Shown here piece by piece: positions 30,432 through 33,733 of a stretch of 34,927 bases of DNA. The DNA is taken from the NCBI GenBank assembly GCA_016867415.1, contig VGJO01000004.1, positions 1 through 34,927 of the forward strand, read 5' to 3'. Below the pieces are notes generated by a model, which saw only the letters and a list, made by a program, of their open reading frames with translations, was not told the DNA's origin and did no database searches. Origin of the DNA: Candidatus Harrisonbacteria bacterium (GTDB lineage Bacteria; Patescibacteriota; Minisyncoccia; UBA6257; UBA11618). Position numbers and translations under genes: made by a program. How positions within the stretch are numbered: position 1 is the stretch's first letter; each line of letters starts with the position of its first letter.

Positions 30432-31571
30432 ATGATTGGGTTTAGGGCGGAGAAGATGTCGGGGAAGAGTCGGGCGAGACTGGGAGTGCTTGAGACACCA
30501 CATGGAGTGATAGAGACGCCGGCTTTTGTGCCAGTGGCTACTCAAGGGACGGTGAAGACGCTTACGGCGGAACAGGCGCTCGCGACTGGGAGTCAACTGC
30601 TTATCTGCAACACATTTCATCTCCATCTGAAGCCCGGAGAGGAAGTCGTGCAGGCGCAGGGTGGGCTGCATGAGATGATGAAGTGGCCACGGCCCTTGAT
30701 GACTGATTCCGGTGGGTATCAGGTGTTTTCACTCGGGTTTGGGATGGATCACAATGAGCGAAAGGTAATGAAGGCGGAAATAGAGAACAAGGTGAAGGCA
30801 GGGGCGAAGCCAAAAAATATTAAGATCACTGAGGATGGAGTCTATTTTCGGTCACCTATAAATGGAGATGAGATTTTTATCTCACCTAAAGAATCAATAA
30901 GGATCCAAGAGGTCTTGGGAGCAGATATTATATACGCGTTTGATGAGTGCACTCCCCCATCAGCCAACTATGAGTATACAAAGAAGTCGCTTGTGAAAAC
31001 GCATCGCTGGGCGAAGGAGTCGCTCGAGGCGCGGCGGGGAGAGCAGGCCATCTATGGGATCGTGCAGGGAGGAAAGTATATGGATCTGCGAGAAGAGAGT
31101 GCGCGGCATATCGCTTCACTCGGCTTTGATGGTTTTGGGATCGGGGGTGAATTTGGCGCGGATAAGGAGACGATGCGGCAGATGATTGAGACCGTAGTCA
31201 CTCACCTCCCAGAAGAGAAGCCACGGCACTTGCTGGGTATTGGCTATCCGGAAGACATTCCAATCGCGATTGCGGCGGGGGTGGATACCTTTGACTGCAT
31301 AGTGCCGACGCACTTTGCCCGACACGGAGTGGCCTTTACTGCGGTGGGGAAACTAGATCTCAATAAGACAGTACATCTCAAAGATGCCAGCGTGATTGAG
31401 GCGGGGTGCGGGTGCGCAACGTGCGCGGCGGGATATTCCAAGGGATACATCACTCACCTACTCCGGGCGAAGGAGATCCTTGGATTCACTCTCATCACGA
31501 TGCACAATCTTCATTACTTTAATATGCTTGTGGCCGGATATCGGGAGAAAATCAAGAATGGAGAATTATAG
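30432..31571 (+). CDS. tgt: queuine/preQ1 tRNA-ribosyltransferase
   Basis: GVIETPAFVPVATQGTVKTLT, PLMTDSGGYQVFSLG, YGIVQGGKYMDLREESARHI, GIGYPEDI, C-x-C-x2-C zinc motif. Confidence 0.96.
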   Translation: MIGFRAEKMSGKSRARLGVLETPHGVIETPAFVPVATQGTVKTLTAEQALATGSQLLICNTFHLHLKPGEEVVQAQGGLHEMMKWPRPLMTDSGGYQVFSLGFGMDHNERKVMKAEIENKVKAGAKPKNIKITEDGVYFRSPINGDEIFISPKESIRIQEVLGADIIYAFDECTPPSANYEYTKKSLVKTHRWAKESLEARRGEQAIYGIVQGGKYMDLREESARHIASLGFDGFGIGGEFGADKETMRQMIETVVTHLPEEKPRHLLGIGYPEDIPIAIAAGVDTFDCIVPTHFARHGVAFTAVGKLDLNKTVHLKDASVIEAGCGCATCAAGYSKGYITHLLRAKEILGFTLITMHNLHYFNMLVAGYREKIKNGEL

Positions 31572-32595
31572 TGAGTTTATAAATCGGTACGATTATGCGG
31601 TGCCGAAGGAGCTCATCGCTACGCGGCCCGAGGAGCCGCGGGAGAACGCGCGACTCCTGACCTATAGAAAGAAGACGGGAGAGATAAGCCTTGGACATTT
31701 TTATGATTTACCTCAGATCTTGGGGCCTAAGATGGTCTTAGTCTTTAATGAGACTAGGGTGATTCCGGCGCGGATAACGGGCACTCTGTCGACGGGCGGG
31801 AAAGTGGAGATCACGGTCGTGGGAATACAGGATTTATTCATCAAAACTCTTTCATCGCGGCGAGTCGATGAAGGGGCGGAGGTGATGGTGGGAGAAGAGG
31901 TGTTTGTTGCGAGGAAGCGGGAAAAACAATTTACCTACTACACGACGCGGATGAAGGCGGATGAGGTACGGTCGTTTCTTGATGCTCATGGCGAGGCACC
32001 ATTGCCGCCATATATCAAAGATACGCCACTTTCTTCAGAGGAGGCAAAGGCACTCTACCAGACGGTGTTTGCCCGAAATGACGGGTCGGTCGCGGCGCCG
32101 ACGGCTTCGCTTCACTTTTCGGAGAAGCTGATGACAGAGCTAAAGGTGCGGGGAGTACAGATAGAGTTTGTGACGCTCCATGTGGGACTCGGGACATTCC
32201 TCCCCGTCACAGAGAAACACATAGCGGAAGGAAAGCTCCATGAAGAGGAATATTTCATCAATAGCGAGACAGCGGATCGGATCAATGAGGCGAGGCGATC
32301 GGGAAAGAAAATTATTCCTGTGGGCACTACATCGCTGCGGACGCTGGAAAGCGCGGCCGATGAAAGTGGCCTGTTGACTCACCTCTCTGGCGCGACTCGA
32401 CTCTTTATCCGGCCGGGATATAAGTTTAAGGTTACTGATGGCCTTATTACTAATTTTCATGTACCAAAGTCATCGCTCTTGATGCTCGTTGATGCTTTCC
32501 TAGGTGACGAAGAGAAGTGGCGTCGGGTCTATAAGACGGCGATGAGGAATCAGTTGCGGTTTTTCTCGTTTGGGGATGGGATGTTGGTTTTGTGA
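31558..32595 (+). CDS. queA: S-adenosylmethionine:tRNA ribosyltransferase-isomerase
   Basis: YDYAVPKELIATRPEEPRENARLL, LVFNETRVIPARI, TASLHFSEKLM, HVGLGTFLPV, RPGYKFKVTDGLITNFHVPKSSLLMLVDAFLG; overlaps tgt by 14 nt. Confidence 0.96.
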   Translation: MENYSEFINRYDYAVPKELIATRPEEPRENARLLTYRKKTGEISLGHFYDLPQILGPKMVLVFNETRVIPARITGTLSTGGKVEITVVGIQDLFIKTLSSRRVDEGAEVMVGEEVFVARKREKQFTYYTTRMKADEVRSFLDAHGEAPLPPYIKDTPLSSEEAKALYQTVFARNDGSVAAPTASLHFSEKLMTELKVRGVQIEFVTLHVGLGTFLPVTEKHIAEGKLHEEEYFINSETADRINEARRSGKKIIPVGTTSLRTLESAADESGLLTHLSGATRLFIRPGYKFKVTDGLITNFHVPKSSLLMLVDAFLGDEEKWRRVYKTAMRNQLRFFSFGDGMLVL

Positions 32596-32663: not shown

Positions 32664-32748
32664 GGAGGGGTCGCATAGTGGTCTAGTGCACCGTCTTGGA
32701 AAGGCGGCATATCGAAAGGTATCGAGGGTTCGAATCCCTCCCCCTCCG
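32664..32748 (+). tRNA. tRNA-Ser(GGA)
   Basis: GGAGGGG/CCCCTCC acceptor, anticodon loop TTGGAAA, long variable arm, GGGTTCGAATCCC T-arm. Confidence 0.95.
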
Positions 32749-32782
32749 CAATTTTTCGAAAAGGGTTTCAGAACGCAAAATG

Positions 32783-32805: not shown

Positions 32806-32990
32806 TAATGCATTCCATCCGCCGCGAAGCGGAAAAAGAAATATAAAGGAAATTTTTGGTTTTTCTTTGCCGTTTCATAAAAAATTTTTTTTACAACCTT
32901 TTTTATTTGAAAGGTTGCAAGAGACCTTTTAAAACAGGGTCTCCAAATCCACTCACAGGGGTTCAATTCCTGGTACCAAATCTACTCATG

Positions 32991-33052: not shown

Positions 33053-33081
33053 ATGACAAAGCTTTTACAGTTTGCTATAAT
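33053..33081 (+). promoter_or_regulatory. sigma70-like promoter of tRNA-Pro cluster
   Basis: ATGACA - 17 nt - TATAAT (consensus -10). Confidence 0.65.
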
Positions 33082-33134
33082 ATAAACATAAAGGATGAAA
33101 TAGGCCTTCCGAACATTGAAAAAATGACCAAAAA

Positions 33135-33207
33135 CAGAGTGTAGCTCAACTTGGTAGAGCGCCAGCTTTGGGAGCTGGATATATCGGTTCAAATCCGATT
33201 ACTCTGA
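33135..33207 (+). tRNA. tRNA-Pro(TGG)
   Basis: CAGAGTG/TACTCTG acceptor, CCAGC-TTTGGGA-GCTGG anticodon arm, ATCGGTTCAAATCCGAT T-arm. Confidence 0.93.
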
Positions 33208-33213
33208 TTCTAT

Positions 33214-33284
33214 CCCGGTAGTAGCGTATCGTTGCGCACCCTCTAGTCAGAGGGAAGAATTGAGGTGACGCTCAGTCTACCGGG
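33214..33284 (+). ncRNA. cloverleaf-like structured element between tRNA-Pro genes
   Basis: CCCGGTAG/CTACCGGG closing stem, GCG/CGC, CCCTCT-AGTC-AGAGGG, TGAG-GTGACG-CTCA arms; no TTCRANY T-loop. Confidence 0.45.
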
Positions 33285-33297
33285 GCCCTTCTCCTTT

Positions 33298-33370
33298 CAC
33301 TGTGTAGCTCAACTTGGTAGAGCGCGAGCTTCGGGAGCTCGATATACCGGTTCAAATCCGGTCACGGTGA
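33298..33370 (+). tRNA. tRNA-Pro(CGG)
   Basis: CACTGTG/CACGGTG acceptor, GAGC-TTCGGGA-GCTC anticodon arm, CCGGTTCAAATCCGG T-arm. Confidence 0.93.
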
Positions 33371-33402
33371 CTGTTTCCAAAATTTCTTTGGAAACAAATT
33401 AA

Positions 33403-33428
33403 CAGAGTGTAGCTCAACTTGGTAGAGC
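33403..33428 (+). pseudogene. truncated tRNA-Pro 5' half
   Basis: CAGAGTGTAGCTCAACTTGGTAGAGC identical to 33135-33160, then unrelated sequence with no T-arm. Confidence 0.8.
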
Positions 33429-33523
33429 AGCGGCAGGGAATATTGTGCCGTCAACAACTAAATATTGTTAATGTATTTAATAGTGGCAGATGAAAAACAG
33501 CTCTTTTTTCAAAGGATGTTGCC

Positions 33524-33733
33524 ATGAAGCGAGTGCGTAATCACAAGCAACGAAATGCGGTCCGCAAGATGTATCGTAGTCATCGTGCGGCACAGAAAAA
33601 GCAAGTGCAGTTGATTCGTGAATTTGCCGAGAAAGAGTTTTGGCTTGATGATGAGGATTGGAATGCACGGGTTGAAGCCTGTATTATTCCGGAACTTCAG
33701 CAAGACGCCGAAACCGAAGACCGTTCCTTGTAG
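33524..33733 (+). CDS. small basic hypothetical protein
   Basis: 69 aa, MKRVRNHKQRNAVRKMYRSHRAAQKKQ...; AAAGGA upstream; terminator overlaps its stop. Confidence 0.65.
   Translation: MKRVRNHKQRNAVRKMYRSHRAAQKKQVQLIREFAEKEFWLDDEDWNARVEACIIPELQQDAETEDRSL

Follow-up and report, generated by a model that had tools for sequence, protein, structure and literature searches.

The window, which is the whole stretch of DNA analysed here (34,927 nt), constitutes the entire contig C4 of the 631-kb genome of a Candidatus Harrisonbacteria bacterium. Two extra tRNA-Pro genes in it enclose a 71-nt cloverleaf-like element, and the features of the locus are as follows.

32664-32749: tRNA-Ser(GGA), near the contig end (ARAGORN)
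33053-33081, + strand: promoter-like site upstream of the array, ATGACA-17-TATAAT with a TG preceding the -10 (11 of 12 matches in a consensus scan)
33135-33207, + strand: extra tRNA-Pro(TGG) (ARAGORN; RF00005, 66.2 bits by cmscan)
33214-33284, + strand: 71-nt cloverleaf-like element (fold, pair probabilities, linkers, and shuffle test)
33298-33371, + strand: extra tRNA-Pro(CGG) (ARAGORN; RF00005, 64.0 bits by cmscan)
33373-33395, + strand: hairpin GTTTCCAAAATTTCTTTGGAAAC, 3' of tRNA-Pro(CGG) and without a T run (fold of 33371-33540)
33401-33428, + strand: exact 28-nt copy of the tRNA-Pro(TGG) 5' end plus 2 nt upstream (direct repeat, 100%)

The element is separated from tRNA-Pro(TGG) by 6 nt and from tRNA-Pro(CGG) by 13 nt, and the whole spacer between the two tRNA genes is 90 nt long. 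Since these gaps leave no room for a further promoter outside the element, the array and the element would naturally be co-transcribed from the single promoter-like site, and the proposal of co-transcription made in the first-pass annotation holds in this sense. The hairpin at 33373-33395 was absent from the terminator listing. The 28-nt copy, which reads as a truncated tRNA and a relic of the array, is followed by unrelated sequence able to form two hairpins.

Directly downstream of the array, positions 33524-33733 encode a basic 69-aa protein that had no match among 242 other genomes of the order. Positions 31552-32595 contain a gene for QueA (queuosine pathway), which adjoins a Tgt-like ORF. 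No tblastn match to this QueA was obtained at an E value of 1e-10 in the six other genomes of the family, so the contig stretch around it may have been acquired. Contamination by a foreign contig was judged unlikely, because contig C4 holds the only tRNA-Asp(GTC) and tRNA-Ser(GGA) genes seen in the genome.

Possible tRNA remnants were also observed outside the array. Positions 32899-32985, upstream of the array, resemble a tRNA 3' half with GGGGTTCAATTCCTGGTACCA at ~32958; ARAGORN called this region only at the 80% threshold, and Rfam gave no match. In the contig C1 stretch 165000-165700 (~254-400), two adjacent weak tRNA-like genes scored 35.9 and 39.7 bits, one of them being tRNA-Phe(AAA) according to ARAGORN, and this pair is perhaps another decaying array.

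The surplus tRNA-Pro pair

In total, 51 tRNA matches above the cut-off were found genome-wide, and almost all anticodons are represented once, as judged by ARAGORN on nearly all of these matches. The genome has its own tRNA-Pro genes elsewhere, with TGG on contig C1, CGG on C3, and GGG on C2, and the window's tRNA-Pro(TGG) and tRNA-Pro(CGG) are therefore surplus. The surplus pair, 86% alike, belongs to a different sequence type from the genome's other TGG and CGG genes. This type was present in none of the 379 other sampled genomes of the phylum, and the D-arm motif of the surplus genes (at most 2 mismatches) occurred in one other genome of the 380 in the phylum set, there in a tRNA-Trp. Phages and other bacteria have tRNA-Pro genes similar to the surplus ones, the identity to phage tRNA-Pro being ~80% over 73 nt. 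The best reading of these similarities is that the array was acquired and is foreign to the genome's own tRNA set. The interpretation in the first-pass annotation, which left three options open for the element, was partly supported: its view of the shape, the missing T-loop, and co-transcription holds. It had overlooked that the flanking tRNA-Pro genes are surplus and foreign in type.

Cloverleaf fold without tRNA loop signatures

The element at 33214-33284 has a fold energy of -33.9 kcal/mol, with the structure ((((((((..(((((....))))).((((((....))))))....((((((......)))))))))))))), and the description of an 8-bp closing stem and three hairpins between two tRNA-Pro genes was thus confirmed. 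Its helical parts are as follows.

33214-33221/33277-33284, + strand: closing stem, 8 bp
33224-33237, + strand: arm 1, 14 nt
33239-33254, + strand: arm 2, 16 nt
33259-33276, + strand: arm 3, 18 nt

The junction linkers are 2/1/4/0 nt, all 25 of the 25 pairs are intact, and the pair probabilities are mostly at least 0.9. Shuffled sequences had a mean energy of -19.8 kcal/mol (sd 3.3; z score of -4.29), and none of the 200 equalled the element. The alternative AGCGT/ACGCT stem pointed out earlier does exist, but at -29.3 kcal/mol it is 4.6 kcal/mol less favourable than the cloverleaf, and the opposite strand also folds more weakly (-26.9 kcal/mol). Inspection by eye showed that GTCA (33246-33249) in the arm 2 loop is complementary to TGAC (33266-33269) in the arm 3 loop.

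The element outfolds all 3,486 71-mers sampled from both strands of the window. The energy of the 90-nt spacer as a whole is less extreme (z score of -3.1; 16 of 3,000 shuffles equally stable). Stable structures often follow the tRNA genes of this genome, and 2 of its 60 tRNA 3' flanks are more stable, both being plain stem-loops. The unusual feature of the element is its topology, its energy being only moderately special.

Class I tRNAs have junction linkers of 2, 1, 4, and 0 nt. The 90-nt spacer was shuffled 80,000 times with its dinucleotides preserved. Linkers of 2, 0-1, 3-5, and 0 nt counted as tRNA-like and arms of 12-20 nt as tRNA-sized; these limits, which allow some slack around the canonical tRNA values, were fixed after the element had been seen. 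A three-armed junction closed by 6 bp or more formed in 1,023 of the shuffles; tRNA-like linkers were present in 5 and three arms within the 12-20 nt range in 124, with no overlap between the 5 and the 124. Because no shuffle combined tRNA-like linkers with tRNA-sized arms, a chance origin of the element's tRNA shape is unlikely. In addition, the element is the top-ranked closed three-hairpin 71-mer in ~215 kb of sequence from its own genome, where most of the other top-ranking 71-mers are tRNA genes.

Compared with the general cloverleaf layout (a 7-bp acceptor, linkers of 2/1/4-5/0 nt, and arms of ~15-18 nt), the element has the corresponding linkers, an acceptor of 8 bp (7 + 1), and arms of 14, 16, and 18 nt, and its size and topology are like those of a tRNA, as was first noted. 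It is not a standard tRNA. The T-loop motif TTCRANY is absent, the arm 3 loop being GTGACG, no GG was found in the D-like loop, and there is no 7-nt anticodon loop with T33, the corresponding loop having 4 nt (AGTC) or 6 nt (TAGTCA). The absence of a T-loop and of a recognisable D-loop had been read correctly, and a known tRNA assignment, which the first-pass annotation had proposed to check for, is excluded: ARAGORN at its default threshold made no tRNA call on the element, and Rfam, its tRNA covariance model included, gave no match on the element at the gathering cut-off or even at an E value of 5. Only at a threshold lowered to 87% did ARAGORN call a tRNA at 33215-33284, giving it an unassignable anticodon loop of 6 nt and the two-letter anticodon GT; at that setting, false matches arose about once per 9 kb in sequence of the spacer's composition and once per 29 kb in window-like sequence. 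Local alignment of the element with 448 tRNAs did not score above shuffles (113 of 200 equally good). Several residues agree with the tRNA consensus, including T8, A9, G10, C11, pairs 10-25 (G-C) and 11-24 (C-G), purine 26, and a G-C pair closing the T-like arm, and the first pair in the 7-bp register is C-G (C1-G72), as in both flanking tRNA-Pro genes. Taken individually, each of these agreements appears weak.

Relatives were sought with a covariance model built from the single sequence in 244 genomes of the order, 384 of the class, and 380 of the phylum, sets that overlap. Below an E value of 0.1, only the element itself was recovered from the order, class, and phylum genomes. The order search gave two matches at E values of 0.19-0.28, and the one that was inspected lacked a tRNA-array context. 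No useful DNA similarity to the element was found in phages and plasmids, its stem pattern was not found in viral contigs, and a QueA-anchored genome scan yielded no relative. In a BLAST search of its own genome the element is single copy, with other matches of 17 bases or fewer.

A search of viral and genome contigs for the tandem tRNA-Pro pattern recovered many loci with many kinds of spacer. Among the tandem tRNA-Pro spacers that were folded and inspected, none resembled the element, and the covariance model matched one tRNA-Pro gene weakly. In Saccharibacteria loci, the spacer between tRNA-Pro TGG and CGG contains a third, GGG-type tRNA-like sequence, as read from the sequence. Only 4 of the 157 distinct folded tRNA spacers close a three-armed junction, namely, that of the element and three viral spacers, two of which contain the T-loop-type sequence GGTTCAATTCC. 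With these findings in Saccharibacteria and viruses, the simplest reading of the element is a middle member derived from a tRNA, although its sequence no longer reveals such an origin. The viral array spacers between tRNA-Lys and tRNA-Ala (97 nt) and between tRNA-Pro and tRNA-Phe (172 nt) fold as cloverleaves with GGTTCAATTCC, and the spacers bearing it are probably tRNA genes missed by ARAGORN at its default setting.

Origin of the element and comparison with known systems

We give about an even chance to a reading in which the element is the non-decoding, tRNA-shaped middle member of an accessory tRNA-Pro array, having most likely begun as a third tRNA gene and been stripped of its loop signatures. 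Such a gene would have kept its cloverleaf while losing the anticodon-loop, D-loop, and T-loop signatures. A single transcript would start near 33090 and extend across both tRNA-Pro genes and the element between them; cleavage by the 3' tRNA endonuclease on the first tRNA and by RNase P before the second would then free the 90-nt spacer containing the folded element, which might act as a self-folding module separating the two real tRNAs or might be an inert by-product. The class I linkers, the shuffle test (0 of 80,000), the spacing of 6 and 13 nt typical of an array member, and the tRNA-rich ranking in its own genome argue for this reading. Against it, tRNA descent does not appear in the sequence, 113 of 200 shuffles being as similar to tRNAs as the element is, and simple pseudogene decay would not predict 25 intact pairs. 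Intact pairs together with lost loop signatures would fit selection on shape, or else a recent origin.

A structured spacer of non-tRNA origin is the main, though rather doubtful, alternative, in which a processing or insulating hairpin cluster, kept or merely present, would be released as a 90-nt piece and possibly serve as an sRNA. The shuffle-level tRNA similarity, the complementary GTCA/TGAC loops of arms 2 and 3 seen by eye, and the strong folds that commonly follow tRNA genes in this genome are consistent with it, and a precedent is provided by the leuZ-type sRNA sponge (PMC5222698). However, it leaves the exact tRNA linker geometry unexplained (0 of 80,000 shuffles), and the other strong flanks in the genome are simple stem-loops rather than cloverleaves. 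The same combination of tRNA-like linkers and tRNA-sized arms, together with the element's first place among closed three-hairpin 71-mers in 215 kb, where tRNA genes account for most of the other top entries, makes a chance fold of the G+C-rich spacer improbable, although the energy of the whole spacer is moderate (16 of 3,000 shuffles as stable) and the element was picked out of a 35-kb window in one genome only.

A dedicated tRNA mimic is quite improbable; such an RNA, under selection for its shape and devoid of anticodon and T-loop signatures, would be made together with the accessory tRNA-Pro pair and would act as a decoy, or compete, for enzymes that bind or cut tRNAs. An expressed atypical tRNA with a short anticodon loop, aminoacylated and used by the ribosome, such as a putative frameshifting tRNA, would account for the tRNA geometry and the two-letter anticodon GT of low-threshold ARAGORN, but it is made very unlikely by the missing T-loop motif, D-loop GG, and T33 context, by the lack of a covariance match at an E value of 5, and by a genome that already has a full tRNA set with nearly always one gene per anticodon. 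There is similarly little chance that a copy of a small mobile palindrome with inverted repeats of 8 bp at its ends was inserted between duplicated tRNA genes. Its 8-bp ends are perfect and the locus contains local duplications, but there is only a single genomic copy, no target-site duplication at the ends, no worthwhile phage or plasmid match, and no match to the stem pattern in viral contigs. On these grounds, both the mobile palindrome and an independent tRNA were rejected.

If the cloverleaf of this tRNA-shaped array member is maintained, the shape of a tRNA would here have come apart from its sequence and its decoding role, in a bacterial genome that ranks among the smallest and within an accessory tRNA set whose anticodons are already represented elsewhere in the genome, and T-loop-reliant tRNA gene finders would overlook such members of tRNA arrays. 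If it is only a relic, the element would document the decay of an acquired tRNA array.

YrlA, a bacterial Y RNA (RF02553), contains a tRNA-mimicking module. The Y RNA model, which was suggested for checking at the outset, does not apply to the element, since its two weak matches (24.2 and 14.6 bits; cut-off 69) fell on the flanking tRNA-Pro sequences.

In enterobacteria, an sRNA sponge is cut from a polycistronic tRNA precursor as the leuZ 3' external transcribed spacer, a 3' trailer that is matured by RNase E (PMC5222698). The element would likewise be a structured segment of a polycistronic tRNA transcript, distinct from the tRNAs and freed by processing, but it lies between two tRNAs and is tRNA-shaped. 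Phage-type tRNA arrays with degenerate or missed tRNAs contain tRNA-Pro genes resembling those of this locus (~80% identity over 73 nt), and spacers of viral arrays can conceal cloverleaf-forming tRNAs. In contrast, no phage genes were identified next to the array described here, and two viral examples keep a T-loop motif that is missing from the element. From bacterial class I tRNAs (RF00005), the element differs in its missing T-loop and D-loop GG, its 4- to 6-nt instead of 7-nt anticodon loop, its 8-bp closing stem, and the absence of a covariance-model match or visible sequence relatedness, but it shares with them the size, the four-helix cloverleaf, the linkers of 2/1/4/0 nt, residues 8 to 11, pairs 10-25 and 11-24, purine 26, and the position in an array.
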